From positions 1 through 33,696 of IMG/VR virus record IMGVR_UViG_3300028392_000190: a DNA stretch of 33,696 bases. One strand, written 5' to 3'. Within the stretch, counting starts at the first letter, position 1. Every line of letters begins with the position of its first letter. The DNA comes from a virus. Position numbers and translations under genes: made by a program. The notes below the pieces were generated by a model. That model worked only from the letters and a program-made list of their open reading frames with translations. It had not been told where the DNA came from and made no database searches. This document shows positions 2 to 33,696 of the stretch, piece by piece.

Positions 2-904
2 TACATTATCGGTAACGGTAGTCAATTAACTGGATTGCCAGCTAGCTACGCTAATAGTAATGTTGCTAGCTTCTTAGCTGCTTTTGGTTCAAACACGATC
101 TCTACAACAGGTACACTTACAGGTAGTAGTCACTTAGGCGCAGTAGTATCCGCAAGTGGCAATATCACTGGCGGTAATGTATTAACCGGTGGTTTAGTAA
201 GTGCCACAGGTACAATTACAGGTAGTAGTCACTTAGGCGCAGTAGTATCCGCAAGTGGCAATATCACTGGCGGTAATGTATTAACCGGTGGTTTAGTAAG
301 TGCCACAGGTACAATTACAGGCAGTAGTCACTTAGGCGCAGTAGTATCCGCAAGTGGTAACATAACTGGTGGTAACCTATTAACTAGTGGATCAATTAGC
401 GCAACTGGTAACATAACTGGTAACATTCTCACTAACAGTATCGTAAATAGTGGCACTAGCGCGACCGGTAATATTGGTTCTACAACAGTACCGTTTAACA
501 CAGTATTTGCCATAGCAACATCGGCACAGTACGCTGACTTAGCTGAGAATTACTTAGCTGATGCGGTATATACTCCGGGCACCGTTGTAAGTTTTGGCGG
601 TGATTATGAGGTTACCCAATGTGCTGTTGACGAAGATCCTACAGTAGCAGGTGTCGTTTCTACACAACCTGCTTATCAGATGAACGAAGGATTAAAAGGT
701 GATTTTGTGACTAGTGTTGCATTGATGGGTAGAGTGCCTTGTCGAGTAGTAGGTCCCGTCAAGAAAGGTGCGATGATGGTGTCTGCTGGCAATGGCATGG
801 CTAGAGCCGAAGCTAATCCTGCTATGGGATCAGTACTTGGAAAAGCCCTACAATCTTTTGATGGCAGCACAGGTGTTATTGAAATCGTGGTTGGAAGACT
901 GTAA
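2..904 (+). CDS. Tail fibre/adhesin-like repeat protein, 5' end missing
   Basis: The reading frame is open from base 2 and the start lies beyond the left edge; a TTG at 35 is inside the gene. The first visible residues include GNGSQLTGLP, the same repeat unit that fills the protein at 3843, so the two are paralogues. The middle consists of three 33-residue repeats (GSSHLGAVVSASGNIT...). The last ~125 residues are a different, non-repetitive domain starting near ADLAENY and containing an Asn-Glu-Gly-rich stretch and a GRVPCRVVG strand. This resembles the C-terminal domains that end many T4-like marine phage fibres and are sometimes annotated as peptidase_G2/IMC-like, intramolecular chaperone domains. 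I infer a trimeric fibre with host-surface contact. The function is not proven from sequence. Confidence 0.75.
   Translation, partial: YIIGNGSQLTGLPASYANSNVASFLAAFGSNTISTTGTLTGSSHLGAVVSASGNITGGNVLTGGLVSATGTITGSSHLGAVVSASGNITGGNVLTGGLVSATGTITGSSHLGAVVSASGNITGGNLLTSGSISATGNITGNILTNSIVNSGTSATGNIGSTTVPFNTVFAIATSAQYADLAENYLADAVYTPGTVVSFGGDYEVTQCAVDEDPTVAGVVSTQPAYQMNEGLKGDFVTSVALMGRVPCRVVGPVKKGAMMVSAGNGMARAEANPAMGSVLGKALQSFDGSTGVIEIVVGRL
107..403 (+). repeat. Three tandem 99-bp in-frame repeats inside the fibre gene
   Basis: Units begin at 107, 206 and 305 (each starts ACAGGTAC). Units 1 and 2 differ at a single base. Unit 3 is almost identical for its first ~50 bases and then diverges. The 99-bp period equals 33 codons, so gain or loss of a unit keeps the frame. 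Near-identity at the DNA level points to recent duplication or ongoing homogenisation. Confidence 0.95.
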
Positions 905-907
905 ATC

Positions 908-3811
908 ATGTCATCGCAACCTGTTTGGGTCACACCGGCTGGTAGCTTAGGAACTATAGCAGAGGGAGCCTTCTTTGAGTCAGTTCTCGACGCTACCACT
1001 GCTGATCTTAGTCCCATATTCTATACCGTCGTAGCAGGCGCATTGCCTTCGGGGATAGAATGTACAACAGGCGGCATCATACAAGGGGTACCAACTAATG
1101 TAGTTACGGTCGCTCAAGAAACGATAGCATCGGGTGCCGACATCACTAGCAAGTTTGCCATAAGAGCTTATACTGTCAGAGTCGTAAACGGTATAAGAGT
1201 AACTAATCGATTATCTGATAGAACTTTTACCATAACTGTAGCCGGGCAAAATGCTCCAGTATGGATCACACCCCCGGGATTGATAGAAGAATATTTTGAT
1301 GGGTCTTTGGTAGAACCTGGATACCAACTTCAATACACAAATGATAATCCAACTGGAATTCCTCCTGCGATCACATTAATTGCCGGAGCCTTGCCTCCGG
1401 GATTGACCGTAAGTAGTACAGGTTTGATTTCGGGCTATGTTGGGTTAAACCCGGTTATTACGACTCCCGCAGGGTTTAGCCGTAATGGACAGGGATTTAG
1501 CAGCTATCCGTTTGACTTTACATCGCAGACTCAGAATTACACTTATGAGTTTACATTGAGATTAACTGATGGCAGAACATCGACGATCCAGACTTTCAAT
1601 ATTTTGGTATGGACAACTGCTGCGTTTGACGCGTCGACCACACTGATAACTGCCGATAACACTTATCTCACAGCCAGTATAAGCAACGTCAACTATCCTG
1701 TACTGATCAATGCTGCGGGATCTATCGGAACTGTACCTAATAATACCTTCTTTGCTTATCAATTTATCGGCGAAGACATTGCCAGTGTCCAACTTGCTTA
1801 TCAAGGTATTAATCTACCACCGGGGTTAACACTTAATAGAGATACTGGTTGGTTATACGGATATATCCCTAACTTATATTTTACACAGATAACTTATGAC
1901 TTTAGTGTGTATGTTTATCAATATTCAAATCCATCGATATCAAGCCCTATATATGACTATAGTCTAACAGTGACAGGTCCGACATCAGCCGAAATCTATT
2001 GGAACTCCCCATCAAATCTAGGATCTATCTTTAATGGTGATACTAGTCTATTTTCCGTTGTGGCAACGTCAGCTAGTGGATTGCCACTACAATATTTTTT
2101 AGTCTCGGGCAGTAATAGTCGTTTACCTCAAGGATTGACTTTACATCCTACGGGGAATATAGTGGGTAGAGTGAGTTTTGATACTTTTAGTTTGGATAAC
2201 AATCTAACTACTTTTGATGTTAGTTCCGGTAACCCAACTACATTTGACCTAACTTATACATTTACTGTCAATGCTTCTAGTATTAATGGATATGCCAGTG
2301 TTAGTAAAACCTTTACTATTACAGTGGTAAGAAAATACGATTTACCTTACAACAATCTGTATATCACTTGCATGCCGCCCACAAACGATCGTCAGTTAAT
2401 AGCAAGTTTGCTACAAAACGCAACTATATTCCCGCCCTCATTATTATATAGACAAGATGATCCAAACTTTGGTTTGAGTAGAGAAGTCGTTTATTATCAT
2501 GCCTATGGTTTAACAGCCACTAGTCTAGAGGAGTACGTGCGAGCATTACAGCTCAATCACTACTGGAAAAATCTACAATTAGGCAGTATAGAAACGGCAC
2601 AGGCTCTAGATCCCGTCACTGGCGAAGTTATATACGAAGTAGTGTATAGTAAGATCATCGACACATTGGTCAACAATCAAGGCGTGAGTGTGGGCAAAGA
2701 GGTACAGGTTCCTTACCCGATCAATCCCAATACACAGTATCAGATCAATGAGGTGTATCCTAACTCCCTCGCCAATATGCGAGATCAAGTCATCGATGTA
2801 GTCGGGCAGGAAAGTAATATGCTACCGCTATGGATGTTGTCAAAACAAACGGATGGTAACGTATTAGGTTTCACCCCCGCCTGGGTCATAGCATATACAA
2901 AGCCAAATGCCAGCGGGCAGATAGCATATAATATCAGTACTCGATTTGGTGATCAGCTTAACCAGGTAGATTATACTGCCGATCGTTACGAATTAGACAA
3001 CTCATTAACTAATAATTGGAATACGACAGATATTACTACATTAAGTATAACTGATATTACGGTCAATGGGTATGAGGCTACGATCACTTACGGAGTACAG
3101 CCTACCCCGCCGTTTGTCATCGGAGAACAAGTTATTGTGGACAACGTCTACCCCAAGAGCTTCAATGGTAATTTTATCGTAGTAACGTGTTCTACTACAC
3201 AAGTGGTGGTCAATAGCATTAACATAGATACATGGATACGTGGCGGGATAGTATCTAGTACAGGCCATTGGTCGCCATCACCACCCCAGTCAACGACATT
3301 TGACATAAATTATCATTACATAGTAAGCGATGAGTATCCTTCATATGGCGGATCGGGATACACGGTGGGAACTATGCTCAAGATAGCAGGTACAGCGATA
3401 GGTGGAATCAGTCCCGACAATGATTGTTTAATTACTGTCAATACAGTTGATGATACTGGGGGAATCGTAAGCGCATTTTATTATGGTACTGCCAGTATAT
3501 TATCAGCAGGCAAAACATATAATAACGTCATCGCAACGGTGATTTCAGGAACTGGTTCCGGGGCATTGTGGAATATTACGATAATACCAGGTGTAGCGAC
3601 AGTATTTGATGGCGGCAGTGTAACCTTCAATGATCCCGCTAATATGGATACTAATACCAATGTATATGACAAATACTTGATGTTCCCAGATCGCAAAATT
3701 ATAGAATCACCACTACAGACCACCGCGACCTGGACTAACGAATATTCATCGACTGTAACTTGGGTCAATAATAGCGGACAACCTGTTAACTGGTTGAATA
3801 ACCTCGCATGA
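908..3811 (+). CDS. Large virion protein with Ig-like (He_PIG-type) modules
   Basis: A 967-residue protein starting 3 bases after the previous stop. The N-terminal half carries four copies of the putative-Ig signature LPxGL...G.I.G (GALPSGIECTTGGIIQG near residue 45, GALPPGLTVSSTGLISG near 158, NLPPGLTLNRDTGWLYG near 303, RLPQGLTLHPTGNIVG near 406). These are hallmarks of He_PIG/cadherin-like beta domains found in surface and phage adhesion proteins. From about residue 480 the sequence changes to a mixed, Tyr/Asn-rich region (FTPAWVIAYTKP near 655), then more beta-rich sequence. There is no signal peptide or membrane segment. Its place between two fibre genes suggests a long tail fibre, a baseplate-attached adhesin or a structural hub. 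The exact role is unknown. Confidence 0.7.
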   Translation: MSSQPVWVTPAGSLGTIAEGAFFESVLDATTADLSPIFYTVVAGALPSGIECTTGGIIQGVPTNVVTVAQETIASGADITSKFAIRAYTVRVVNGIRVTNRLSDRTFTITVAGQNAPVWITPPGLIEEYFDGSLVEPGYQLQYTNDNPTGIPPAITLIAGALPPGLTVSSTGLISGYVGLNPVITTPAGFSRNGQGFSSYPFDFTSQTQNYTYEFTLRLTDGRTSTIQTFNILVWTTAAFDASTTLITADNTYLTASISNVNYPVLINAAGSIGTVPNNTFFAYQFIGEDIASVQLAYQGINLPPGLTLNRDTGWLYGYIPNLYFTQITYDFSVYVYQYSNPSISSPIYDYSLTVTGPTSAEIYWNSPSNLGSIFNGDTSLFSVVATSASGLPLQYFLVSGSNSRLPQGLTLHPTGNIVGRVSFDTFSLDNNLTTFDVSSGNPTTFDLTYTFTVNASSINGYASVSKTFTITVVRKYDLPYNNLYITCMPPTNDRQLIASLLQNATIFPPSLLYRQDDPNFGLSREVVYYHAYGLTATSLEEYVRALQLNHYWKNLQLGSIETAQALDPVTGEVIYEVVYSKIIDTLVNNQGVSVGKEVQVPYPINPNTQYQINEVYPNSLANMRDQVIDVVGQESNMLPLWMLSKQTDGNVLGFTPAWVIAYTKPNASGQIAYNISTRFGDQLNQVDYTADRYELDNSLTNNWNTTDITTLSITDITVNGYEATITYGVQPTPPFVIGEQVIVDNVYPKSFNGNFIVVTCSTTQVVVNSINIDTWIRGGIVSSTGHWSPSPPQSTTFDINYHYIVSDEYPSYGGSGYTVGTMLKIAGTAIGGISPDNDCLITVNTVDDTGGIVSAFYYGTASILSAGKTYNNVIATVISGTGSGALWNITIIPGVATVFDGGSVTFNDPANMDTNTNVYDKYLMFPDRKIIESPLQTTATWTNEYSSTVTWVNNSGQPVNWLNNLA

Positions 3812-5628: not shown

Positions 5629-7281
5629 ATGGATCTACTGCCCAAAGTAATTTTAGCAAACAGCGAGATAACCACTCCCGTCGAGGCTACTGCCGCTACT
5701 TTAATCAACAGTGATTCGATTATAAGTTTCAATATAATAGTTTGCAGATCGGAATCAGTCACTGACTATGCCGCCAGTGTAATGGTCGGCGATAGCCCAG
5801 TATTGTCTTATACAGATTTTTGTGATAGATTTGGTTCATCTGATTCTGATATAGCTTTGGTCACTGACTTTGCTAATACCGCAGGGTTTATAATCGAAGA
5901 TACTCATTCTCCCAGTGCTACAGTGAAATTATCTGGAACAGTATCACAAATCAATGCGGCATTTGAAATTACACTACACACAGTTACTTTGCCCGACAGA
6001 TCATATATGAGTTATTCTGGGTCTATAAAAATACCTGCCTCATTAGTCGGCATCATCGAACATGTTTTGGGATTAGATACATCTGTAAAATTTGGCAGAA
6101 TCAAAAACTCTATATCACAAGCAACTGTGGGCCTAACCCCTCCACAAGTGGCTACCGCTTATAATTTTCCTAATAATAATGGATATGGGCAATGTATAGG
6201 TATATTAGAATGGGGTGGCGGTTACACCACTCAGAATCTTACATCTAGTTTTACTCCATTAGGATTAGCTAACCCAACTACAGTTGATATATTGACCGAC
6301 GGTGCCACCAATAATCCTTCAGATGTTGGCGATTCAGGTGAAGTTATGTTAGATATATTTGTAGCCGGAGCTGTATGCCCAAATTCTCTGTTTGCAATGT
6401 ACTTCGGTGGTGGCAACGGATCACCGTCGGGTCTAAACTGGTATAATAATTTCAATGCTGCTATACACGATACTGTCAATAACCCGTGTGTGCTTAGTAT
6501 TAGTTGGGGAGCAGGCGAAGTGTCGTATTGGCCATCTAATTACCCTCCGATATTTGATAGTTTATTCTCGCAGTCGGTAGCACTGGGAATAACGATGTTA
6601 GCCTCTTCGGGCGATTATGGGTCTACTTGGTCTAGTAGCTCACCCGAAGTATTATACCCGGCATCGAGTGTATATATTACAGCTTGCGGGGGAACCACTC
6701 TTCAATTAAGTGGGTCATCTAGATCGAGTGAGACAGGGTGGACTGGTAGTGGCGGAGGATTAAGTGTTCGAGAATCGCTACAATCTTGGCAAAGTGGATT
6801 ATCTTACACCACATATGGATATCCTAGCGGCCCGACGGGATCACCTGCCTCGCTAACTGTTCGAGGTGTTCCGGACATCGCCGGCAATGCTGATCCTGCG
6901 TCTGGATACAGTTTTTATTATAGTGCTAGTAATACATTTATTTCAGGGGTCGGTGGTACCAGCGCGGTATGCCCACTTATGGCAGGATTAATCGCGAGAC
7001 TAGTTCAACTTAGTGGTACTAGAATCGGATATGCCAATCCATTTTTCTATGCCAATCCCGGCGCATTTTATGATGTAACTTCGGGAGAAAATGCGGCTTA
7101 TGTTAACGGCTACACTTGTACCACAGGCTGGGACGCGGTTACCGGGCTAGGGGTGCCTATAGGTACTAGTCTTTATAAGATATTAAATACCGGAGCCGCG
7201 TTCCCTAAAAAGAATTTTGGGTTTAGACCCACCACCGGACCGACATATCCACGTATATCAACTGGAGCCAGAGTAAACTAG
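5629..7281 (+). CDS. Sedolisin-family (S53, kumamolisin-like) serine peptidase
   Basis: A complete 550-residue S53 peptidase. Residues ~1-165 look like the pro-kumamolisin activation domain. The catalytic set is all visible: Glu238 and Asp242 in GEVMLD, the oxyanion Asp329 in ASSGDYGS, and the nucleophile Ser445 in GGTSAVCP. The family's C-terminal calcium site is also present (Asp482 in YDVTSG and Asp502 in GWDAVTGLG). S53 enzymes cleave proteins, usually outside cells and often at low pH, after removing their own propeptide. There is no signal peptide, so it probably leaves the cell as part of the virion. It starts 1 base after the fibre gene and is probably translationally coupled. A virion-borne protease that cuts host surface proteins or processes the neighbouring fibres is the likeliest role. 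The family call is firm; the role is inferred. Confidence 0.93.
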   Translation: MDLLPKVILANSEITTPVEATAATLINSDSIISFNIIVCRSESVTDYAASVMVGDSPVLSYTDFCDRFGSSDSDIALVTDFANTAGFIIEDTHSPSATVKLSGTVSQINAAFEITLHTVTLPDRSYMSYSGSIKIPASLVGIIEHVLGLDTSVKFGRIKNSISQATVGLTPPQVATAYNFPNNNGYGQCIGILEWGGGYTTQNLTSSFTPLGLANPTTVDILTDGATNNPSDVGDSGEVMLDIFVAGAVCPNSLFAMYFGGGNGSPSGLNWYNNFNAAIHDTVNNPCVLSISWGAGEVSYWPSNYPPIFDSLFSQSVALGITMLASSGDYGSTWSSSSPEVLYPASSVYITACGGTTLQLSGSSRSSETGWTGSGGGLSVRESLQSWQSGLSYTTYGYPSGPTGSPASLTVRGVPDIAGNADPASGYSFYYSASNTFISGVGGTSAVCPLMAGLIARLVQLSGTRIGYANPFFYANPGAFYDVTSGENAAYVNGYTCTTGWDAVTGLGVPIGTSLYKILNTGAAFPKKNFGFRPTTGPTYPRISTGARVN

Positions 7282-8117
7282 CCCTTTCGCTTTAGACCAC
7301 CTAAGACAAAATCATCACCGGGTTGTTCTTTGGCAAACTTTGTTATAACACCGTTGTTACAGGCTTTGGTTCCGGTGGTACTTCCAGCACGTTTCCCCCT
7401 GTTCATTGAACCAAGAGTAAAATCGTCTCCGGGACAATTCACGGACATACGATCTATAACTCCATTTGTCCATTTTCGCATACCTTTAGTGGTAGCTAGT
7501 TGTTCGTATGTTTTCAAGCTGCCTAGAACCCATTCAGGGCCAGGACATTCTTTTGACATCTTCGTTTCTATACCGTTATTCCACCATTTTGTTCCTTTAT
7601 TATGTGCTTTTTGTTCGCCAGTTTGGATAGCTCCTTTCTTATATTCGGGACCAGGACACTCAAACGCCATCTTAGTATGAACACCGTCATTCCAAGCTGT
7701 CATGCCTTTTATAGGCGCGACATGTCCTAACTTACGTGCCGCTTGGGCGTGAGCTGCTGCTGCCCTAAGTTTGGCATATACTCTGCCAGTAATTCGTACA
7801 TTTTTATTTTTACTAAGGTAAGTGTCCATTAACCAAGCGGCGGCACTATCGACTTTATATTGGGCTTCTTTAGTATCTACCATCTTAGTCAAAAGTAAGT
7901 GGCATACGAAATGTTCGTGTTGGGTTAGCCACACCAGATTCTCAGCTACATCTGGATCGCCTGGTAGCCATCCTTTCCGTCCTTTGCGTTTTCTTTCTAT
8001 GTAAAATGATTCTGGTATGATGTGATGCTTGTCGTGATGTTTACGTATGCCACGAGCTTTTGCGTTATTGACGATGTTATAATACCACTGGGTATATTTG
8101 TTGTTTATAAATATCAT
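7278..8117 (-). CDS. HNH homing-type endonuclease with four C-terminal repeats
   Basis: 279 residues on the strand opposite to its neighbours. The N-terminus carries an HNH-type core: HHIIPES (His31-His32), NLVWLT (60-65) and HEHF (His67, His69). It is homologous in this part to the endonuclease at 24386 (HHIIPKS, NLVWLT, AEHLKAHLLL.KMVD). After a helical linker come four repeats spaced exactly 37 residues (starting at Gly138, 175, 212 and 249), each with the pattern G-x-x-x-W/C-x-[ND]-G ... PG-x-[ED]-[YWF]-x-x-G, probably DNA-recognition modules. It shares a palindromic CTAG with the sedolisin gene as stop codon on both strands. A GGGAG stretch lies ~9 bases upstream of its ATG. Likely a free-standing mobile endonuclease inserted in the tail region. 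Confidence 0.88.
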   Translation of the reverse strand: MIFINNKYTQWYYNIVNNAKARGIRKHHDKHHIIPESFYIERKRKGRKGWLPGDPDVAENLVWLTQHEHFVCHLLLTKMVDTKEAQYKVDSAAAWLMDTYLSKNKNVRITGRVYAKLRAAAAHAQAARKLGHVAPIKGMTAWNDGVHTKMAFECPGPEYKKGAIQTGEQKAHNKGTKWWNNGIETKMSKECPGPEWVLGSLKTYEQLATTKGMRKWTNGVIDRMSVNCPGDDFTLGSMNRGKRAGSTTGTKACNNGVITKFAKEQPGDDFVLGGLKRKG

Positions 8118-22471: not shown

Positions 22472-23290
22472 ATGCGCACAATAGCTATATACGGTGGAAG
22501 ATTTCAGCCAGGCCATCTAGGCCATATGTCCAGTTACGATTATTTGGTAGACAAATTCGGGGCTGATAATGTCTTTGTGGCCACCGCAGATTCTGCTTCG
22601 TCGGAAGATGATCCTTTTAACTTTGGTGAGAAAGTAGCTATGCTCACTAAACTGGGCATACCTTCTAGTCATATAGTTAAAGTTCGCAGTCCTTATAGAC
22701 CAGTTGAAATAACTAAAGATATTGGCGATCCTGAGGACACAGCATTAGTGTTTGCTCTTAGTGAAAAGGATATGAGTGGGGCCGAAGGCGAGAAGCCTCG
22801 CTTCGATTTCAAACCAAAAAAGAACGGCGAGCCTAGTTACATGCAACCTTACCCCGGGGACGATGAAGAATTAGAACCCATGACCAAACACGGGTATGTA
22901 CTAATTACTCCGACTACACCATTTAATGTTATGGGTAAACCTGCTAAAGGTGCTACTAAGATAAGAGAGTTATACCGAAAAGGCAATGAAGCTGATCGTA
23001 AGAAAATCATACATGATTTATACGGAGAATTTGATCCCCATATCAAAGCAATATTCGATAAAAAGTTAGGCAGTGTTGAAGAACCGCGTACAGCCGTAAT
23101 CCAAGAACCTCCGTTTGATGCTAATGTATTAGATACTCCGGCGCCGCTACAGCGCGAATCTCGTGAACTACGTCTAGCTAGATTAGCCGAAGACATCAAG
23201 CGATTAAAGCGACAGATATCGGAAATACGACGTAGCAATGATAAGCCTAACTATATAGACGAACGTGATAAGCGTAAGGTTTATTGGTAG
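22472..23290 (+). CDS. HxGH-superfamily nucleotidyltransferase with C-terminal extension
   Basis: 272 residues. The N-terminus IYGGRFQPGHLGHMSSYDYL carries the nucleotidyltransferase signature GRFQPxHxGH (His15, His18). The second signature appears as GATKIREL (160-167), equivalent to the (I)SSTKIR nucleotide-binding motif. Such enzymes move AMP or CMP onto small phosphates, for example NMN in NAD synthesis or phosphocholine-type substrates. The middle segment (90-150) is a charged insertion, and the last ~70 residues are a helical Arg/Glu-rich tail (RLARLAEDIKRLKRQISEI) absent from normal NMN adenylyltransferases. The tail could mediate oligomerisation or packaging. A late box directly upstream suggests late expression, odd for a metabolic enzyme. 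The substrate cannot be told from sequence. Confidence 0.82.
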   Translation: MRTIAIYGGRFQPGHLGHMSSYDYLVDKFGADNVFVATADSASSEDDPFNFGEKVAMLTKLGIPSSHIVKVRSPYRPVEITKDIGDPEDTALVFALSEKDMSGAEGEKPRFDFKPKKNGEPSYMQPYPGDDEELEPMTKHGYVLITPTTPFNVMGKPAKGATKIRELYRKGNEADRKKIIHDLYGEFDPHIKAIFDKKLGSVEEPRTAVIQEPPFDANVLDTPAPLQRESRELRLARLAEDIKRLKRQISEIRRSNDKPNYIDERDKRKVYW

Positions 23291-24385: not shown

Positions 24386-25177
24386 ATGTTTTTGTTTAAT
24401 GAATACACAAGTGAGTATTATAAGATAATAAAACAAGCCTTAGATAGATTAAGTCATACCGCATCTAGAAAAGAAGCCAGAGAGTTACTAGGGTATGTTG
24501 AAAAACATCATATAATACCCAAATCATTAGGCGGAACAAATGATGATTCTAATTTAGTGTGGTTGACTGCCGCAGAACATTTGAAGGCGCATTTGTTATT
24601 AGTTAAAATGGTAGATAAAATCGAACATAAAAGGAAGATGAGTTCCGCTGCTGTGCGAATGGCAAATCCGCAAAGTAGGACTCATCATCGTATATTAGCT
24701 GACAATGAAATAGAAGATATAGCTATCATACGTGCTGAAGCTGCGAGACTACATTCTGAATATATGAAAGAACGACACAAAGGAGAAAATAATCCATTTT
24801 ATGGTCGTCATCATACTGAAGAATCAAAATTAGCAAAAAGCATAGCTAATAAAGGGTTGCCAAGAACCCAACAAACCAGAGAAAACATTCGCGCTTCAAA
24901 ACTAGGAGACAAAAATCCTAGCAAAAAAATAGTTACTTGTCCGCACTGCGGTGTTACAGGAAAGGCAGGGGGAGTACGTAAGCATCATTTTGATAATTGT
25001 AATGCCCATTTAGTTTATACTTTTAAAAAATTGGCAACGGGCGAATTATTCACAGGGACACGTAGTCAGTTGCTAAATTTACATTTGTCGCCGAAGGATA
25101 AAGCTCCGCTGGGCAATATGATTCACAGGAGACAAATGTCAGTTAAAGGTTGGGCGTTGGTTAACAATGACTGTTAA
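24386..25177 (+). CDS. HNH homing-type endonuclease with NUMOD3 and zinc motif
   Basis: 263 residues. The HNH core is HHIIPKSLGG (His41-His42), NLVWLTAAEH and KAHLLLVKM, clearly related to the endonuclease at 7278-8117. It then carries a NUMOD3 DNA-binding motif, GENNPFYGRHHTEESK (~133-148), with a second half SKLGDKNPSKK. A zinc-finger-like VTCPHCG...RKHHFDNC (Cys185, Cys188, and His/Cys near 200-205) follows, and finally a NUMOD1-like segment (TFKKLATGELFTGTRSQLL). Such genes spread by cutting unoccupied sites in related phages. It sits behind a terminator and has its own late box and AGGAG, so it is a self-contained unit inserted before the cargo cluster. Confidence 0.9.
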   Translation: MFLFNEYTSEYYKIIKQALDRLSHTASRKEARELLGYVEKHHIIPKSLGGTNDDSNLVWLTAAEHLKAHLLLVKMVDKIEHKRKMSSAAVRMANPQSRTHHRILADNEIEDIAIIRAEAARLHSEYMKERHKGENNPFYGRHHTEESKLAKSIANKGLPRTQQTRENIRASKLGDKNPSKKIVTCPHCGVTGKAGGVRKHHFDNCNAHLVYTFKKLATGELFTGTRSQLLNLHLSPKDKAPLGNMIHRRQMSVKGWALVNNDC

Positions 25178-25212: not shown

Positions 25213-27036
25213 ATGGATATTAAACAACTAGAATCTTATAACCTCGCAGATGCCGTTAAGTTTCACCGACAACTTAATCCAAAACTGTGGACTCGCAGGG
25301 AAGAATTACATCCTGATGTGCGAAAGCGGTTGTTACTGATAGCCGAAGACTTCCAAAGTTTCCTCGGCGTTTCTAATGTAGACTTACGTGATGTAACAAT
25401 AAGCGGCAGTAATGCTTCTTACACTTATACCCGACATTCAGATATTGATTTACATCTCATCATTGATATTCCCGAAGCTTCTGACACGGAAGTTTATCGT
25501 GAATTGTTTAACGCTAAAAAGACCATATACAATAATGAACATGATATAACAGTTAAGGGGATTCCTGTAGAGTTATATGTACAGATAGCAGATGAACCTG
25601 TTGTCAGTAATGGAATTTATAGTGTGTTAGTTGATAAATGGTTACGTATATCCAGACGTCAGCGTGTTGATATCGATGATCTTAGCGTAAGAAGCAAGTA
25701 TGAAGATCTCTCACAACGAATCCAACATGCCATAGACACAGACAGTTATAGTACTATGGACAAACTCAGCAACAAGATACGTAAAATGCGCCAAACAGGT
25801 TTAGCGCAACACGGAGAGTTTGGTCCAGAAAATTTGGCTTTTAAGATATTACGTAGTCAGGGTGATATAGAAAAATTATATGATGCGAAGATTCGCGCAC
25901 GTAGCCAAGAACTTAGTTTGAAAGAATTAAAGAAACAGCCAATATCCTATGGATATGGCCGTGATCACTTAGAAGAAGTGGGTCTTACACCTGACGGCAC
26001 AAATCCCAGTACATGTGAATTCGCAAATGAGGATCAAACATCTAAAAAAACTGACAGAGAGATTATAGAAGACTTTGTAGAGTTTTGTATCAAAGAACTT
26101 GACCTCTCACGTAAAGTTAAATTAAGATTGCGCCGTGATCCCGAATGGAGTCGTCGTAACAAGACTTTTGGCAGATATAATGAAGCTACACAGGAATTAG
26201 AAGTAGCCGTAGGTCAGCGTCATATTATGGATGTATTACGTACTCTCGGTCACGAGTTAGTACATCAAAAACAAAATGAAATAGGCGTAGTCCCGCCTGA
26301 TGCTGGTAGCGATGGCAGCGCATGGGAAAATGAAGCTAATGCTGAAGCTGGGGTGTTGATGAGAAGATATGGCAAACAACATCCTGAATTATTTTCGGAT
26401 ATACAAATGCAAGATGTGGAAGAAGGCTGGGCAGATAATATCAAAAAAGGAATTGCCGGTGCTGCCTTGGCTGGTGGATTGGCATTTGGAGGTCATGCCG
26501 CGGCAGCAGATTTAGGGCATGGACACCAGCCTGCCCCGCAAGCTGTACAGGCTTTTCAGCAACTTCCGCAGAATATCCAGCAGTATCTAAAAACAAATGG
26601 CCAATATCCTAAGGATATACAGCAATACTTGTTGTCAAAAGGTCAACTTGACGCACAGATGAGCTTAGAGCAGCCCAGAGGAAAAACTACATATGTCAAT
26701 ACCGATCCTCAAGCTCAAGTAGAGCGTGATCGTGCGATAAAAAGTCTAACAGCTGATCGCCAAGCATTGGCTGCCAAATACAAAATTGATCCAAATCTCA
26801 TAGATAAAATGCCAGAATATAATTTGAATGAAGCTTCAGGGTATATTCCAACCGCTGCCGAGGCTAATGATCCAAGATATAAAATGGCATTAACAGTAGA
26901 TATAAGACCAGGGGCCATAGGTCGTGCTGCGAATGCGTTAATGCTGGATACTGATGCGCAAGGACATCCTCAAATGTTAAGACCAGACGGTATAGTAAAA
27001 AGACTTTCTGAAGAATTTAAAAGATTTCGGGGATAA
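25213..27036 (+). CDS. Nucleotidyltransferase-metallopeptidase multidomain protein
   Basis: 607 residues. Residues ~50-150 show a minimal nucleotidyltransferase fold: ISGSNASYT (Gly65-Ser66), HSDIDLHLI (Asp77, Asp79) and the third acidic residue Glu120 in PVELYVQI. A helical linker follows. Residues ~285-400 carry a zincin motif GHELVHQ (His347, Glu348, His351) with Glu374 or Glu378 in WENEANAEAG as likely third zinc ligand. After DVEE-G (404/405) comes a Gly/Ala-rich hydrophobic segment (KKGIAGAALAGGLAFG), then a Gln-rich region. After LNE-A (540/541) comes a small module, ASGYIPTAAEANDPRYKMAL. Both junctions look like prohead-protease sites. No capsid tag is present at its own N-terminus. 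I infer an injected or virion-internal multi-effector; the enzyme motifs are visible, the role is inferred. Confidence 0.78.
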   Translation: MDIKQLESYNLADAVKFHRQLNPKLWTRREELHPDVRKRLLLIAEDFQSFLGVSNVDLRDVTISGSNASYTYTRHSDIDLHLIIDIPEASDTEVYRELFNAKKTIYNNEHDITVKGIPVELYVQIADEPVVSNGIYSVLVDKWLRISRRQRVDIDDLSVRSKYEDLSQRIQHAIDTDSYSTMDKLSNKIRKMRQTGLAQHGEFGPENLAFKILRSQGDIEKLYDAKIRARSQELSLKELKKQPISYGYGRDHLEEVGLTPDGTNPSTCEFANEDQTSKKTDREIIEDFVEFCIKELDLSRKVKLRLRRDPEWSRRNKTFGRYNEATQELEVAVGQRHIMDVLRTLGHELVHQKQNEIGVVPPDAGSDGSAWENEANAEAGVLMRRYGKQHPELFSDIQMQDVEEGWADNIKKGIAGAALAGGLAFGGHAAAADLGHGHQPAPQAVQAFQQLPQNIQQYLKTNGQYPKDIQQYLLSKGQLDAQMSLEQPRGKTTYVNTDPQAQVERDRAIKSLTADRQALAAKYKIDPNLIDKMPEYNLNEASGYIPTAAEANDPRYKMALTVDIRPGAIGRAANALMLDTDAQGHPQMLRPDGIVKRLSEEFKRFRG

Positions 27037-27038
27037 TC

Positions 27039-27833
27039 ATGAAAGCAGATGAATTCATCACAGAACATATCGTTAAAGTCAAAGGTGGATATAGATTAGT
27101 GTCTAAGAAGTCAGGACGAAATCTCGGAACTTATCCCACACGTGCCGGTGCGGAGAATCGAGAGCGCCAAGTACAATATTTTAAGCATGCCACAAAGGAA
27201 TCTATCGGCGCAGAAGAGTTTGCGAATCTCGATGAATATCTTGTGAAGTTATGTGATCTAATAATCCAAGGGCAACATAAAGATCCCGACTATTATGGCT
27301 ATGTGGCTGCTGCTATATTAGATCCGGATGGCAATTATGTACAAAGCATCAATATCCCACGACAAGGTAAAAGAGTACATGCCGAAAGAGCAGCCATAGA
27401 AAAATATCAAAAACAGTATGGTGAGATACCTAACGATAGTATAATCATCACTACACTTAGCCCTTGTGATGAGAAAAACGATGAGACCGCCGATGAGCGT
27501 TGGGGAGAAAGTTGTAGCGATCTTATCAATCATCTGGGCATACGGGAAGTATATTGCGGATATCGTGATCCGAGTCAGGTAGTACGACATAATCATTATC
27601 GAGAAACAGTAACCGACAATGCCAAAATACGAAAACTGTGTAAGCAATTCGCCAGTACATTTTTAGATACAGAACAATTGGACGAGCTGGCATTTATGGG
27701 ATCACAGTGTACCAAGGACTGTTCAGGACATCAAGCTGGATATGCTTGGGCTAAACGTAATGGCGCAAGACCGGCCAATACTGCCAGTCCTAGTTTTAAT
27801 AACGGGGTGGCGATAGCCCAGTCTGGACGATGA
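27039..27833 (+). CDS. Tagged cytidine-deaminase-like protein
   Basis: 264 residues. The N-terminus MKADEFITE matches the T4 internal-protein capsid tag, with predicted cleavage after Glu9. Next comes a small basic module (KGGYRLVSKKSGRNLGTYPT). Residues ~60-205 hold a deaminase-like zinc site: VHAERAAI (His114, Glu116) and SPC (Cys143) paired with GESCSDLI (Cys159). The Cys pair is 16 residues apart, as in RibD-type or toxin-type deaminases and unlike the PCxxC of T4 dCMP deaminase. After LDE-L (216/217) a third module (GSQCTKDCSGHQAGYAWAKR) appears, which has its own Cys/His set. It probably acts on nucleotides, DNA or RNA; the substrate is unknown. It follows the 25213 gene by 2 bases. Confidence 0.78.
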   Translation: MKADEFITEHIVKVKGGYRLVSKKSGRNLGTYPTRAGAENRERQVQYFKHATKESIGAEEFANLDEYLVKLCDLIIQGQHKDPDYYGYVAAAILDPDGNYVQSINIPRQGKRVHAERAAIEKYQKQYGEIPNDSIIITTLSPCDEKNDETADERWGESCSDLINHLGIREVYCGYRDPSQVVRHNHYRETVTDNAKIRKLCKQFASTFLDTEQLDELAFMGSQCTKDCSGHQAGYAWAKRNGARPANTASPSFNNGVAIAQSGR

Positions 27834-27934: not shown

Positions 27935-28291
27935 ATGAGAGCTCGAGAGTTTATCACTGAATCTGATGAAAATCTGCCAGCAGACTATCACTTCAAAGTC
28001 TGGGACAGTTTAAAATGGCATGCTGACCGCGCTAGCCTGGGCAACAACATTGGCGCTGAAATCATGTGCTGGTTACTGAAGCACAAGAAACTTGATGACT
28101 GTGTACCCTTTTATGAAGCCACCATATTTCCATTTGTAGAAAAATATAATTACCCCAGACCACCTGATGGACCTGGTGATGATGCTGGCAAGGTATATGC
28201 TGACATGGTCAGAGAAATTGTTGTTAACTGGAGTAAAATGACCCGAGCTGACATTGATAAGTGGGTGCCGCCAGAGGATCGTACTAAATGA
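27935..28291 (+). CDS. Small protein with capsid-targeting-like tag
   Basis: 118 residues. It begins MRAREFITE-S, the same tag as the two tagged genes downstream, with predicted cleavage after Glu9. The rest is helical with aromatic residues (YHFKVWDSLKWHADRASLG; CVPFYEATIFPFVEKY; EIVVNWSKMTRADIDKWVP). I recognise no family. The tag, late box and gene order suggest it is packaged in the capsid. It overlaps the next gene by ATGA. Confidence 0.68.
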   Translation: MRAREFITESDENLPADYHFKVWDSLKWHADRASLGNNIGAEIMCWLLKHKKLDDCVPFYEATIFPFVEKYNYPRPPDGPGDDAGKVYADMVREIVVNWSKMTRADIDKWVPPEDRTK

Positions 28292-28686
28292 GAGCCAGAG
28301 AATTCATTACCGAAGCTGAATTACACGGCGACCGGGCCCCGCTCGATCCCGACATGGCTAAGCCCATGCGTGATACTTTTATGTTACCGGGTATTAGAAA
28401 TAATGACTTTTATAGAAGTTATAGGTTAGCACTGGCATTTGCTCGTGCCCGCGCAATAAACGGCGATCAAGATAATGGCCCCGAATGGACTGCGTTAGAT
28501 GCCATGGGTCCATATGCTGTTGTATCTGTTGATGGCGATGATGACGAGGCATTTATAGATCAAGCATTGAAGATGACTGATACTCCCGGCGGTAAAGTAA
28601 GACTTACAACTAAACGTAGCGAAGAACCTGATGAAGTCAACACTACTAGCCCAGTAACTGGATTTGTGGGATATAAAAGACGATGA
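28288..28686 (+). CDS. Small tagged protein of a recurrent phage family
   Basis: 132 residues. MRAREFITE-A forms the tag, followed by an Asp/Pro-rich stretch and a helical core (NDFYRSYRLALAFARARA). DDDEAFIDQALKMTD and the ending RSEEPDEVNTTSPVTGF follow. The FYRxYRLxxAxA ... EPxxxNTxSPV pattern recurs in small proteins of other uncultured T4-like phages, again without a known role. It is ATGA-coupled on both sides. Likely a capsid-internal, DNA-associated or injected protein by tag and context. Confidence 0.7.
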   Translation: MRAREFITEAELHGDRAPLDPDMAKPMRDTFMLPGIRNNDFYRSYRLALAFARARAINGDQDNGPEWTALDAMGPYAVVSVDGDDDEAFIDQALKMTDTPGGKVRLTTKRSEEPDEVNTTSPVTGFVGYKRR

Positions 28687-28874
28687 GAGCCGATGAATTT
28701 ATATCAGAAAATTTTTCTGATGGCAAAGGTCCCGGTAGACCCGGGGATAGCGCAAGACACGGTATTCCAAAACATGCTTCTTTGGCACAGCTAGATAAAA
28801 TAGGAAAAGGTAAAGGTCGTAAGGCACAGTTAGCTCGTTGGCAAGCTAACATGCGGAGAGGACGTAAAAAATGA
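28683..28874 (+). CDS. Small basic tagged protein
   Basis: 63 residues. MRADEFISE-N is followed by a strongly basic Gly/Arg/Lys/Ala body (GPGRPGDSARHGIPKHASLA; LDKIGKGKGRKAQLARWQ; MRRGRKK). After tag removal it would be a ~54-residue, highly positive peptide, well suited to condensing DNA inside the head. The tag's Glu precedes the basic part exactly. It overlaps both neighbours by ATGA. Confidence 0.75.
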   Translation: MRADEFISENFSDGKGPGRPGDSARHGIPKHASLAQLDKIGKGKGRKAQLARWQANMRRGRKK

Positions 28875-29784: not shown

Positions 29785-29977
29785 GATAACAAACTTACGC
29801 GAAGATGCCAGTGTTGGATCCACGGCTAGTGGTAGTGTTGCTACAGTAGCGATGCCATTGGGCACGGTTCAGCGCAGAATCCCCGATTCAATGTTTACGG
29901 CTAAATATACTAATGACGCTACGCCTAATACGCCAGCAGAATACAAACAATACAAACGGAAAAATAATGCTAACTGA
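29771..29977 (+). CDS. Small protein with possible propeptide
   Basis: 68 residues. It starts MRLYEITNLRE-D, which loosely resembles the tags upstream (Met-basic, then a Glu after Leu-x), followed by GSTASGSVATVAMPLG and a basic tail (YKQYKRKNNAN). The GSVATVAMP segment recurs in small phage proteins I know only as hypotheticals. It is likely a precursor cut after LRE. It overlaps the Dps-like gene by 11 bases. Confidence 0.55.
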   Translation: MRLYEITNLREDASVGSTASGSVATVAMPLGTVQRRIPDSMFTAKYTNDATPNTPAEYKQYKRKNNAN

Positions 29978-30407
29978 TCTACTCAAAGTATTACTAGCCA
30001 GTGATTTTGCCTACTATTTAAAGGCTCATGGATTTCACTGGAATATAGAAGGGCGTGATTTTTATCAGTATCATAAGTTTCTACAAAAAGTATATGAAGA
30101 CGCTTACGAAGCCGTGGATACTATAGCAGAATTTATCCGTACATTAGATGAATATGCTCCTGCTAGCTTGTCTCGCTATCAAGAATTAACTAGAATACAA
30201 GATCAAACAAAGATTCCCCGAGCAAAGCTGATGATAGAAGAATTGTTAGCAGATAGTGACATAATGGTAAACTTATTGAATGAATGTTTCGCAGCAGCCA
30301 CCAAAGAGAATAAGCAAGACATCGCTAATTTTATCGCAGAAAGATTGACAGCAACAAATAAATTCGCATGGATGATGGCAAGTTTTCTAAAGGAAAATAG
30401 AGAATAA
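29967..30407 (+). CDS. dps: Dps-like mini-ferritin
   Basis: 146 residues from the ATG at 29967; the frame extends upstream to 29913 but that part lies inside the previous gene. The Dps signature is clear: HGFHWNIEG near 21-29, then YHKFLQKVYEDAYEAVDTIAEF. The four ferroxidase ligands keep exactly the E. coli Dps spacing: His24, His36 (+12), Asp51 (+15), Glu55 (+4). So the catalytic centre, shared between two subunits, should be active. Dps forms 12-mers that bind DNA, store iron and detoxify peroxide. It is slightly shorter than E. coli Dps (167) and lacks the Lys-rich DNA-binding tail. It could protect phage DNA or shelter iron. It overlaps both neighbours. Confidence 0.9.
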   Translation: MLTDLLKVLLASDFAYYLKAHGFHWNIEGRDFYQYHKFLQKVYEDAYEAVDTIAEFIRTLDEYAPASLSRYQELTRIQDQTKIPRAKLMIEELLADSDIMVNLLNECFAAATKENKQDIANFIAERLTATNKFAWMMASFLKENRE

Positions 30408-31054
30408 TGTTTAACGACATGTATACTATCGTAGAAAGACTGGCGATCTTAGAAGGTCGCATCGCTACGAAAGAAAGTAAGCCTTCAGATAAAAAGCCTG
30501 TACCTGCGTTATTTAAAAATCTCCAACAAGAATCTCCTATACCTATGGTACATGGTATGGGGCTAGGCGAAGAGCAAGTCGAAGAAGATGTACTGTCTAA
30601 AGTTAAAGACTCATTTACTGATTATCTAAAAAGTTTAGAAGATGAAATAAAACAAGATCGCGAGCTTTTGGCAAAAAAGAAACAAGATCTTGATATTAAG
30701 AAAAAAGAATTAAAAGACTTAGATCTGCATAGTTTGGAAGAAGATCCAAATCAAACTCCTGCTACAGGTGAAGCGCCAGCTAGCCTTACAGATCCAACAT
30801 ATGCAGAATCTGCCCCTGTTAAAACATTTGATATAGATGAGTCAGGCGATCCTGCTTTGGGCAGCGGCGGTGGCGGATATCCTTTAGTCGAGATACATGG
30901 CGATGAAAAGCAGGGATTTAAAATACGTCGCGGCGACAGAGAATTGCCCACAAGATTTAAATCATTAGCAGACGCCGAAATGGCATTAGAAATGTTTCTA
31001 GCACGCCGTAAAGCTCAGCAAAATAGCAATGCTGACTACTTGGAAGAAAGATGA
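30407..31054 (+). CDS. Coiled-coil protein, possible head-core component
   Basis: 215 residues. After a helical start (YTIVERLAILEG) and a Lys/Pro linker, a long charged coiled coil spans about residues 65-110 (YLKSLEDEIKQDRELLAKKK, then LDIKKKELKDLDLHSLEED). A low-complexity Pro/Ala/Thr region and a compact C-terminal part (EIHGDEKQGFKIRRGDREL) follow. LILE-G, VEE-D and LEE-D type sites are present (actual: AILE-G, QVEE-D, SLEE-D), similar to prohead-protease targets. Scaffolding or inner-core proteins of T4-like heads are coiled coils with such sites, but I cannot identify it. It shares ATGA with the giant ORF that follows. Confidence 0.65.
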   Translation: MFNDMYTIVERLAILEGRIATKESKPSDKKPVPALFKNLQQESPIPMVHGMGLGEEQVEEDVLSKVKDSFTDYLKSLEDEIKQDRELLAKKKQDLDIKKKELKDLDLHSLEEDPNQTPATGEAPASLTDPTYAESAPVKTFDIDESGDPALGSGGGGYPLVEIHGDEKQGFKIRRGDRELPTRFKSLADAEMALEMFLARRKAQQNSNADYLEER

Positions 31055-33696
31055 AATTATTTGATCTTTTTGAAAATAAAGTCCCCCAATCTACAGAGAT
31101 CGATGAGTTTGATAGTCATGCTATTCGACGCAAGGCTAGAACTCAAATCGTGCGTTTAGCCAAACATTTAGATCGCTGGGGCAATGCGACAGTATACGAA
31201 GATGATGTTGAAGAAAACGCTGGCAAAAATCTTTCAGTAGATCAGTTGGCTGCAATTAGCGATGCCGCACTAGATGCTGCTTACCATTATGGGCGTAGCC
31301 AACCAAGTAATACATTTGGATGGCAGGCTAACTTAAAATCTGCTGCCTTCGCTAAACAAATAATCGATCAAGGTATTACTGACATAGAAAAAATAAGCGA
31401 TGCCATACACAAAGGTTGGAACGTAACGGCACAAGCATTTGTCAAAGATCCCATGATGTTTGATGATTCTCACACTATGGCGCCGGAAAAACTACAGGCT
31501 AAAGTTGCTCAACGTCAGAAATTAATGACACAAAACTATAGTCAACTGCCAGAAGATGAAAAAGAAAAAGATCGCGTAGTGGCTCGTGCTATGTTAGATG
31601 CTATACTAGGTAAGCAAGGCATGGCGGAAGGCTCGGAAAACAATAATACAATAGCACAAAAAATATTCTTCGCTCGTAGTGATAAAGCACCCAAAGGCTG
31701 GAGTTATGACCATGTAGGCTTTATAACTCAAGATGGACGACAAATTCAAATGAGTGGGCATAAAGGCAATGATGTATATGTCACTAACGATGTGACTGAT
31801 GATCCAGAGTTTCCTAAACAAAATATCAAAATTGTGTCATTATCAAAACCAGTGTCAGTCCCCGCAACCAACTCAGTGGGAGCAGAAAATTGTGGAACAT
31901 TTGTGGCAAATGTATTACAAGACAATGGTATAAAAGGTATTAATACAGAGAAAATATATAGTGTGTTCAAACAACCACAGAAGCAAGGTGTGGCGGAAGG
32001 CTCTGAGAACTTCAATGGCATAGACATTGACATGGACATAGAAGGTGACGAAATCATGGTACGAGCAATGGCCAATGGTCGTGAACTGGGACATGTGTTG
32101 TTTGTGGACGCTGGCGAATACCTAATGCCACAGGACCTAGAAGTAGAAGAACGCTATCATGGTCAAGGCATAGCTCAAACAATGTATGATTATGTAAAGA
32201 GTAAAGGATATAAAATTCGCCGTAGTGGTCAGCAAACTGATGCCGGTGCTGGATTTTGGCAAAAACATAGACCTGAACAAAATGTCTGGGAGCAAGGTGT
32301 GGCGGAAGGCGAATTAGATGAAAAGTGGAGTGCTAAGTATAAGCGTAGCATTGACTGTAGTCATCCCAAAGGATTTAGCCAGAAGGCCCATTGTGCTGGA
32401 AGAAAAAAACATAATGAAAGTCAAGAGCAGCACAAATGTCCACACTGCGGCGGACCAATGGTCAGTGAAGAAATGATCAACGAAAAAAAAGACGCCTGCT
32501 ACTACAAAGTAAAAAGTCGTTATAAAGTATGGCCCAGCGCTTATGCTAGCGGGGCCCTGGTAAAATGCCGCAAGAAAGGGGCAAAAAACTGGGGAAAGAA
32601 AAACGAAAGCGTCACTGAAGAAACTTTAGAAGAAAATCTACGCGACTGGTTTAAGACCGAAAAGTGGGTGCGATTTAATCCGCAAGGAAAGATATTAGGA
32701 CCATGCGCCAGGGGCAGTGACAAAGAAGGTAAGCCAAAATGTCTACCTAAAGCAAAAGCACAAGCTCTTGGAAAGAAAGGCCGTGCCAGCGCAGCAGCTA
32801 AAAAACGCAGAGAAGATCCTAATCCAGAACGCACGGGTAAAGCGATCAATGTTAAAACAAAGAAGTCTAACGAAAGTTTAGAGCAGCAACATTCTCGCGC
32901 CAGAGAGCAAAACATACAAGCGGGAGTTACTCCAAGAGATCCTGCTTACTACCAAGAAAAAATAGCACTACGTAACCGTATGGCAGATCGCCCTGCCGCT
33001 GAGATAGCGGCAGCATTACAAGCTCTAAATGTTAAGTATGGCATCAAAGAAGATTCAAAGGGCAGTATGGCAAGAGCTGCTCACAATCCTGAAGGAGCTA
33101 TATTCAAAGGCTATTGGAAGGGTACAGATCCTAACCCTCCTAAACCGGGAATGGGTGTGGGAGGAATGGAAGAAAGTATAAATGAAGCCGGTATGACTGT
33201 AACTAGCCCAGCATTGAAGCCACGTAATTTAGTGGCTAAAAACGCCAACAAAGCTATAGGCGGTGGAGCAGCCGGAGCTCATAAAGACCAAAAGAAGGCA
33301 GCTAAACATGGCGATGTCAAACATAAAAAAGATATCATTCCAGTTACTGAGAATTTTTTAACGTGGGCCATGAATCAAGGTGATCAATATAAAGATTTTA
33401 TGACTAACCCCGCGATTTATGAGAGTGCTCGCGCAGAATATAAAAAAAAAGTTTTAGAAGCCAGTAGTCCAGCTCAACAAGCTGCCATCGCCATCAATAT
33501 GAAAAAGCATGGCCAAAAACCAAAAAACGTCAAAGAATTTAGAAACGATCATAGCCCAGTAGCATGGCATGAAACTTATTACGGCGGTTTAGATGAAGAT
33601 GATGCCGGCGATGAATTACAGCCCGGAGAATACTATATATGGACTATATACTTTGACGACGGCACCAGCAAGAAGATAAAAGTTACAACTGATGAA
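31051..33696 (+). CDS. Giant modular polyprotein, 3' end beyond the window
   Basis: 882 codons without a stop; the end is outside the window. It starts MKLFDLFE-N, directly coupled to the previous gene by ATGA. Modules are separated by Gln-Gly-[Val/Met]-Ala-Glu-Gly linkers (Glu193, Glu316, Glu419). They are: an unknown helical domain (1-193); a permuted papain-like domain (194-316) with His221 in YDHVGFI and Cys281 in AENCGTFV; a GNAT acetyltransferase (317-419) with motif A RYHGQGIA at 368-375; a Cys/His-rich SIDCSHPKGFSQKAHC segment plus CPHCGG (420-478); a DUF5872-like ACYYKVKSRYKVWPSAYASG module (~482-501); a DUF6321-like DWFKTEKWVRFN...CLPKAKAQ module (532-~610); then Lys-rich modules split near INE-A (712) and VTE-N (767). 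I infer a capsid cargo precursor cut by the prohead protease. Confidence 0.8.
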   Translation, partial: MKLFDLFENKVPQSTEIDEFDSHAIRRKARTQIVRLAKHLDRWGNATVYEDDVEENAGKNLSVDQLAAISDAALDAAYHYGRSQPSNTFGWQANLKSAAFAKQIIDQGITDIEKISDAIHKGWNVTAQAFVKDPMMFDDSHTMAPEKLQAKVAQRQKLMTQNYSQLPEDEKEKDRVVARAMLDAILGKQGMAEGSENNNTIAQKIFFARSDKAPKGWSYDHVGFITQDGRQIQMSGHKGNDVYVTNDVTDDPEFPKQNIKIVSLSKPVSVPATNSVGAENCGTFVANVLQDNGIKGINTEKIYSVFKQPQKQGVAEGSENFNGIDIDMDIEGDEIMVRAMANGRELGHVLFVDAGEYLMPQDLEVEERYHGQGIAQTMYDYVKSKGYKIRRSGQQTDAGAGFWQKHRPEQNVWEQGVAEGELDEKWSAKYKRSIDCSHPKGFSQKAHCAGRKKHNESQEQHKCPHCGGPMVSEEMINEKKDACYYKVKSRYKVWPSAYASGALVKCRKKGAKNWGKKNESVTEETLEENLRDWFKTEKWVRFNPQGKILGPCARGSDKEGKPKCLPKAKAQALGKKGRASAAAKKRREDPNPERTGKAINVKTKKSNESLEQQHSRAREQNIQAGVTPRDPAYYQEKIALRNRMADRPAAEIAAALQALNVKYGIKEDSKGSMARAAHNPEGAIFKGYWKGTDPNPPKPGMGVGGMEESINEAGMTVTSPALKPRNLVAKNANKAIGGGAAGAHKDQKKAAKHGDVKHKKDIIPVTENFLTWAMNQGDQYKDFMTNPAIYESARAEYKKKVLEASSPAQQAAIAINMKKHGQKPKNVKEFRNDHSPVAWHETYYGGLDEDDAGDELQPGEYYIWTIYFDDGTSKKIKVTTDE
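31613..32310 (+). repeat. Three dispersed 20-bp linker repeats
   Basis: Copies at 31613-31632, 31982-32001 and 32291-32310. Copies 2 and 3 are identical over all 20 bases (AGCAAGGTGTGGCGGAAGGC). Copy 1 differs at two positions. They encode the QG[VM]AEG linkers between unrelated domains. The flanking domain sequences share no similarity, so the repeats could serve as recombination sites for swapping modules. Confidence 0.9.

Follow-up and report, generated by a model that had tools for sequence, protein, structure and literature searches.

The last gene of the sequence studied here joins a series of small modules in one reading frame through nearly identical linkers, and the question is what these linkers are for. 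The window, as we call the whole 33,696-nt stretch analysed, is one piece of the genome of a T4-type phage and encodes a clamp loader, PhoH and head structural proteins. The open frame at 31051..33696 (+), read from the sequence, spans 882 codons, runs past the contig end and shares 4 nt at its ATG start with the gene upstream. A preliminary description had taken this frame for a packaged precursor with linkers of prohead-protease form; on re-reading the sequence, its frame of at least 882 codons, its linkers and its Glu193, Glu316 and Glu419 coordinates were right, and the further sites that it gave (INE478-K, VTE523-E, INE712-A and VTE767-N) are present in the chain. We favor, with a probability of about 0.6, the reading that this protein is a head-packaged precursor that would be cut by an S77 prohead protease, its linkers doubling as in-frame exchange points.

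The polyprotein gene and its surroundings

The 882-codon chain contains 23 [LIVM]xE patterns compared to 11 expected (positions of the main sites in Table 1). The view that its parts are unrelated small domains holds where it is testable, on matches that are weak: GNAT for residues 319-418 (E = 6e-4), RyR-like for module 1 (E = 0.05), CHAP-like for module 2 (E = 0.08), and DUF5872. Module 1 yields a confident helical model and module 2 a low-confidence model (pLDDT 59), neither of which has a match in the PDB; module 2 may have a papain-like fold. Modules 1 to 3 have no match in cultured phages, and no PADLOC defence family was matched. With the predicted cuts, residues 425-767 resolve into small basic pieces (computed pI 9 to 10), which may be effectors or, just as well, head proteins that bind DNA in the manner of T4 IPI-III. 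Enzyme-like modules in the relatives include ParB_N, nucleotidyltransferase, deaminase, GH19 and amidoligase; the window has GNAT.

As the preliminary description had noted, tagged genes lie nearby. Tags of the capsid-targeting, MRAxEFIxE-like type are clear on four neighbors in the window and in many relatives, where the same modules stand alone behind tags. The polyprotein's own N terminus, MKLFDLFE, diverges from MRAxEF[ILV]xE and is only tag-like. A Ferritin/Dps-like gene just upstream (Pfam Ferritin, E = 2e-19; 29913-30407, +) has no capsid tag. A second multi-module protein (25213-27036, +) carries a nucleotidyltransferase-like N terminus and a metallopeptidase-like motif, GHELVHQKQ, followed by a DVEE-GWADNIKKGIAG boundary of the [LIVM]xE type. 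No terminase gene was seen in the window, whose contig ends inside the polyprotein gene.

Table 1. Polyprotein gene, its parts and the tagged neighbors, in window coordinates; hyphens mark boundaries
Feature	Coordinates	Strand	Basis or remark
Tagged neighbor MKADEFITE-, cytidine-deaminase domain	27039..27833	+	tag and profile
Tagged neighbor MRAREFITE-, no known family	27935..28291	+	tag and profile search
Tagged neighbor MRAREFITE-, no known family	28288..28686	+	tag and profile search
Tagged neighbor MRADEFISE-NFSDGKGPGRPGD	28683..28874	+	same module behind SVAE- or DVAE- in relatives
Polyprotein gene	31051..33696	+	at least 882 codons, open at contig end
N terminus MKLFDLFE, tag-like, ends L-F-E	31051..31074	+	sequence
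Module 1, residues 50-188, helical domain	31198..31614	+	stand-alone gene in eight relatives
Linker 1, CAAGGCATGGCGGAAGGC = QGMAEG (KQGMAE-G), Glu193	31615..31632	+	sequence
Module 2, residues 195-311, His/Cys-bearing, weakly CHAP-like	31633..31983	+	profile, context comparison
Linker 2, CAAGGTGTGGCGGAAGGC = QGVAEG (KQGVAE-G), Glu316	31984..32001	+	sequence
Module 3, residues 318-414, GNAT-like	32002..32292	+	profile match
Linker 3, CAAGGTGTGGCGGAAGGC = QGVAEG (EQGVAE-G), Glu419	32293..32310	+	sequence
Site LDE424 (LDE424-K), preceding module 4	32314..32322	+	sequence
Module 4 (KWSAKYKRSIDC...)	32323..32475	+	solo behind tag in relatives and cyanophage Bellamy
Site INE478 (INE478-K)	32476..32484	+	sequence
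Module 5 (KKDACYYKVKSRYKVWPSAYASG...), basic	32485..32610	+	comparison with relatives
Site VTE523 (VTE523-E)	32611..32619	+	sequence
Modules 6 and 7 (LRDWF...; GYWKGTDPNPPKPG...)	32620..33177	+	comparison with relatives
Site INE712 (INE712-A)	33178..33186	+	sequence
Module 8, small, Lys-rich	33187..33342	+	comparison with relatives
Site VTE767 (VTE767-N)	33343..33351	+	sequence
Modules 9 and 10, truncated by the contig end	33352..33696	+	comparison with relatives

Protein-level constraint on linkers and module boundaries

A protein search of IMG/VR revealed 52 relatives, and a DNA scan for GGTGTGGCGGAAGG revealed at least 120 stretches, 80 of which were examined; in these, 89 of 103 matches are in frame 0 of the longest open frame, reading GVAEG. 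The loci found by protein homology hold 62 linkers. De-duplication of the IMG/VR contigs left 142 linker-bearing polyproteins (84,276 residues, up to seven linkers apiece), and 346 distinct in-frame linker contexts were found when up to 3 nt mismatches were allowed. Of the 161 copies with no more than one mismatch, 159 are in frame, in sense and within long frames, and none falls in another long frame. Across 21 large contigs, picked for carrying the linker or a relative, allowing one mismatch gives 81 matches (about 0.2 expected, 1 in the reversed control). The closest cultured relatives by gp23 (~66% identity) are PA5oct and Vibrio 2.275.O, in which the linker was not found; tags among the MS-detected proteins of PA5oct, such as MKINDIITE on EST35_0150, are only suggestive. 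A bacterial origin of the linker was considered and rejected: 26 exact 18-mer matches in genome contigs have unrelated contexts, mostly in GC-rich genomes, and are taken as chance.

T4 gp21 cleaves after L/I-x-E (PMC9026906). In the 346 linkers, changes in the Glu codon are synonymous in 24 cases and non-synonymous in 2, compared to 27 and 48 for the Gly and Ala codons together (Fisher p = 5e-7, a test that assumes independent linker contexts, an assumption that related phages do not wholly satisfy), and Glu is the residue under the strongest constraint. Val changes to L, M or I in 21 of 23 cases, whereas variation is free at Gln and at the final Gly. By these counts [LIVM]-x-E is the part retained as linker DNA drifts, and with it the P1 Glu characteristic of T4-type prohead protease substrates. 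Boundaries without frozen DNA obey the same rule. Glu is positioned at −1 in all 24 contexts of module 4, the cleanest case, in 12 of 15 contexts of module 5, for which the upstream sequence is partly related, and in 9/9 contexts of the IKKG module, for which the upstream sequence is itself related. Tags and linkers also interchange with Glu in register, as in MKANEFITE-KWSQKYK and MRAKEFISE-KWSKKYK compared to EQGVAE-EWSKKYK, and in MRADEFISE-NFSDGKGPGRPGD (NFSDGKG) of the window compared to SVAE-NFADGKGPGRPGD (NFADGKG) and DVAE-NFADGKGPGRPGD of relatives.

The Glu constraint, the location at module starts and the tag register all argue for prohead-protease-type sites, as the preliminary description had proposed, but the residue at P3 fits less well, being mostly Val in the linkers (some M, L or I) rather than L/I. 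At P3 the other boundaries have L, I, M or V, gp23 has L, and I predominates among the 89 capsid tags found at these loci (I, 53; V, 17; L, 17). Val at this position is the weak point in taking the linkers as candidate cut sites.

As neither a prohead protease nor gp23 was recognized in the 34-kb window, both were sought in relatives, and it is there that the cognate S77 protease is found. Peptidase_S77 and gp23 occur in the same record in 5/17 contigs of the homology set and in 9/14 contigs of the mostly DNA-pattern set; contigs without the pair may be fragments. The gp23 propeptides of linker-bearing genomes contain LLE and LxE sites. Weighing against the cut-precursor reading, along with the merely tag-like N terminus and a window in which no protease was recognized, is one of the 21 large contigs (G015), where the protease is present and the linker was not found at one mismatch. 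Taken together, these comparisons partly support the precursor model of the preliminary description, which missed the conservation at the DNA level and the exchange of modules.

Frozen linker DNA and module exchange

The linker codons are frozen (AAGGTGTGGCGGAAG), unlike those of the capsid tags on neighboring genes, an internal control in which the protein is conserved and the codons vary freely. In 36 G[VMIL]AEG sites, a set found by protein homology and not by DNA, Ala is encoded by GCG in 31, compared to 66/1156 (6%) for the Ala of other AE pairs; the GCG share of Ala codons in linker-bearing genomes is 6 to 11%. The conserved stretch, approximately (G/A)A(G/A)CAAGGTGTGGCGGAAGG(C/T), drops to background on either side. 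Between flanking modules that retain 30-85% identity, codon agreement at conserved residues is ~0.5, compared to 0.75 to 0.89 in the linkers (pre-filtered by weak identity), whatever the flank divergence. In the 142 polyproteins, the only 13-mers recurring in at least 6 contexts are the linker and its close variants, with no frozen linker other than the QGVAE type among them. Linker variants are star-like around one consensus and are not grouped by contig. Concerted evolution within a genome was rejected, as identical variants do not cluster by contig (p = 0.98). The codon freezing is compatible with recombination or with selection on the DNA itself.

Behind module 1, the linker or a linker-like site leads into some ten different right-hand partners; at eight loci module 1 is a stand-alone gene. 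Copies of module 2 are ~90% identical, have 19 left and 14 right contexts, and are almost always linker-bounded. As these contexts show, module exchange takes place at the linker. Identical linkers mark the exchange points and probably promote in-frame exchange, and we infer that homology at the linker is its cause. In one locus (L257, around 2934-3100), MRANEFL is joined directly to KRGVAEGSENN, with module 2 behind it, which looks like the insertion of a linker cassette at the cut site of a capsid tag.

Such exchange could be all that the linker serves, which would make it a recombination joint within an uncut multi-domain single chain, inside or outside the virion. We regard this as unlikely: codon freezing, shuffling and a P3 Val in place of Leu/Ile are consistent with a joint, but a near-absolute Glu constraint with an aliphatic P3 is not predicted by it, and neither is the in-register swap of tag and linker. 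Less likely still, the frozen nucleotides may be under selection at the DNA or RNA level, for instance because they pause translation, direct RNA processing or are the target of a nuclease, with exchange as a side effect. Fixed synonymous positions, the rare codon GCG included, and star-like variants without contig clustering suit this explanation; the near-exclusive location of the copies in frame, in sense and inside long frames (159/161 at up to one mismatch) argues against it, as do the boundaries that follow [LIVM]xE without frozen DNA.

Known systems and a proposed route through the phage head

The statement in the preliminary description that nothing like this protein had been described proved too strong, as T4 internal proteins, polyvalent proteins and cyanophage T4-GC119 come close. 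T4 IPI-III and Alt, which are cut by gp21 (PMC9026906), have a short N-terminal [LI]xE tag, as do the tagged neighbors and many relatives (the polyprotein itself being only tag-like), and an S77 protease, found here in relatives; small basic products and late head genes, both predicted here, are further likenesses to the T4 internal proteins. The latter are encoded one per gene, whereas each chain described here combines many modules and has sites within it and a linker with frozen codons.

Polyvalent proteins of phages and conjugative elements likewise carry 2 to 15 disparate domains per chain, with overlapping domain types, and in the sections of PMC5512222 consulted they are thought to be packaged and injected, with the polyprotein analogy drawn by the authors themselves. 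Those sections propose release via embedded peptidases, which are frequent but not universal, and do not describe a repeated frozen linker or prohead-protease sites between modules. In the window polyprotein, no peptidase family was found above the cut-off (module 2 is only weakly CHAP-like). Delivery of a whole polyvalent-type protein, with cleavage inside the host or by its own peptidase, would agree with the several disparate domains in one chain and with common domain types (GNAT, ParB_N, nucleotidyltransferase and a weak Kinase-PolyVal; PMC5512222). Against it stand the missing peptidase family and the fit of the sites to the prohead-protease type, and we give it only a slight chance.

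Cultured cyanomyoviruses encode a related multi-module protein, T4-GC119, at the gp16-gp17 locus. In S-E7, Bellamy, S-CAM9 and S-SM2 it has modules 4, 5 and 6 and a DUF6321-type module in common with the proteins studied here, and it is also a multi-module chain with LDE/IDE/ISE-type boundaries, but it lacks the QGVAE linker and the linker DNA. It is labeled hypothetical in Sullivan 2010 (PMC3037559) and structural in the S-E7 record; the parts of these sources consulted do not describe it as a cut precursor. S-CREM2 ORF137, at the same locus, has a C-terminal module in common with the multi-module proteins and was seen in virions with 4 unique peptides (PMC10665884); this virion evidence is indirect, and the study itself cautions that proteins present in abundance can co-purify. 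Cytidylyltransferases, a class with a look-alike gene at 22472-23290 (+) of the window, are found in cyanophage virions according to the literature.

In T4-type phages, the mobile regulatory cassettes known as PeSLs (Arbiol 2010 and Comeau 2014, as cited in PMC4503421) resemble the linker in being short conserved DNA that mediates modular shuffling. As outlined in that source, PeSLs are non-coding promoter-terminator motifs between genes, whereas the linker is coding, intragenic, in frame and presumably a cut site too. The packaging and cutting logic would parallel T4 internal proteins, the multi-domain logic polyvalent proteins and the DNA-shuffling idea PeSL cassettes. We found no description in the open-access literature of a coding linker that combines the three, although one may exist elsewhere, and a search of full-text open-access literature for the linker motif returned nothing relevant.

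Joining of unrelated genes at a short repeat during assembly has a negligible probability: all linker-bearing sequences are metagenomic, but usual assembly k-mers exceed the length of the linker repeat, ten junctions recur in at least two loci, several across different metagenomes, which speaks against an artefact, selection is visible in the drifting linkers, and related multi-module chains occur in cultured cyanophages.

For the cut-precursor reading, we infer packaging, cleavage and delivery along the following lines. The polyprotein would be expressed late and brought into the prohead core by its N-terminal tag. During head maturation a gp21-like (S77) prohead protease would cut after [LIVM]xE and free small internal-head or host-directed proteins (main products ~5 to 21 kDa), which would stay with the DNA and be injected. 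Because the QGVAE linker is nearly the same 15 to 21 nt everywhere, it would also be an in-frame exchange point: phage DNAs could recombine in frame where their linkers are identical, most likely via short homology, and modules would be traded without loss of frame or cut site. We give even odds to the fuller proposal that these 15 to 21 nt are a dual code, the protein being a head-protease cut site and the DNA a homology handle across T4-type phages for trading effector modules; the gene would then amount to an array of cassettes, with products released inside the capsid and injected as a set. If so, T4-type phages can assemble and trade their sets of injected proteins in a plug-in fashion, in which any module between two linkers would be packaged by one tag, freed by the head protease and delivered. 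This would explain the fast diversification of small phage proteins, provide in AAGGTGTGGCGGAAG a sequence handle for mining host-takeover and anti-defence proteins in metagenomes, and point to a way of arranging multi-protein cargo in T4-type capsids.

Several other genes are of note. Sedolisin-like (S53) motifs (SWGAGE, SSGDYGS and GGTSAVCPLMAG), recognized by eye, are located at 5629-7281 (+) of the window among tail-fibre-like genes. HNH-type homing endonuclease look-alikes, also judged by eye, lie at 7278-8117 (−) and 24386-25177 (+), one opposite in strand to its neighbors, and GIY-YIG-like genes come after gp23 in two relatives (L059 and L060). A tail-fibre-like fragment at 2-904 (+) of the window contains nearly identical tandem repeats (VVSASGNITGGNVLTGGLVSATGTITGSSHLGA).
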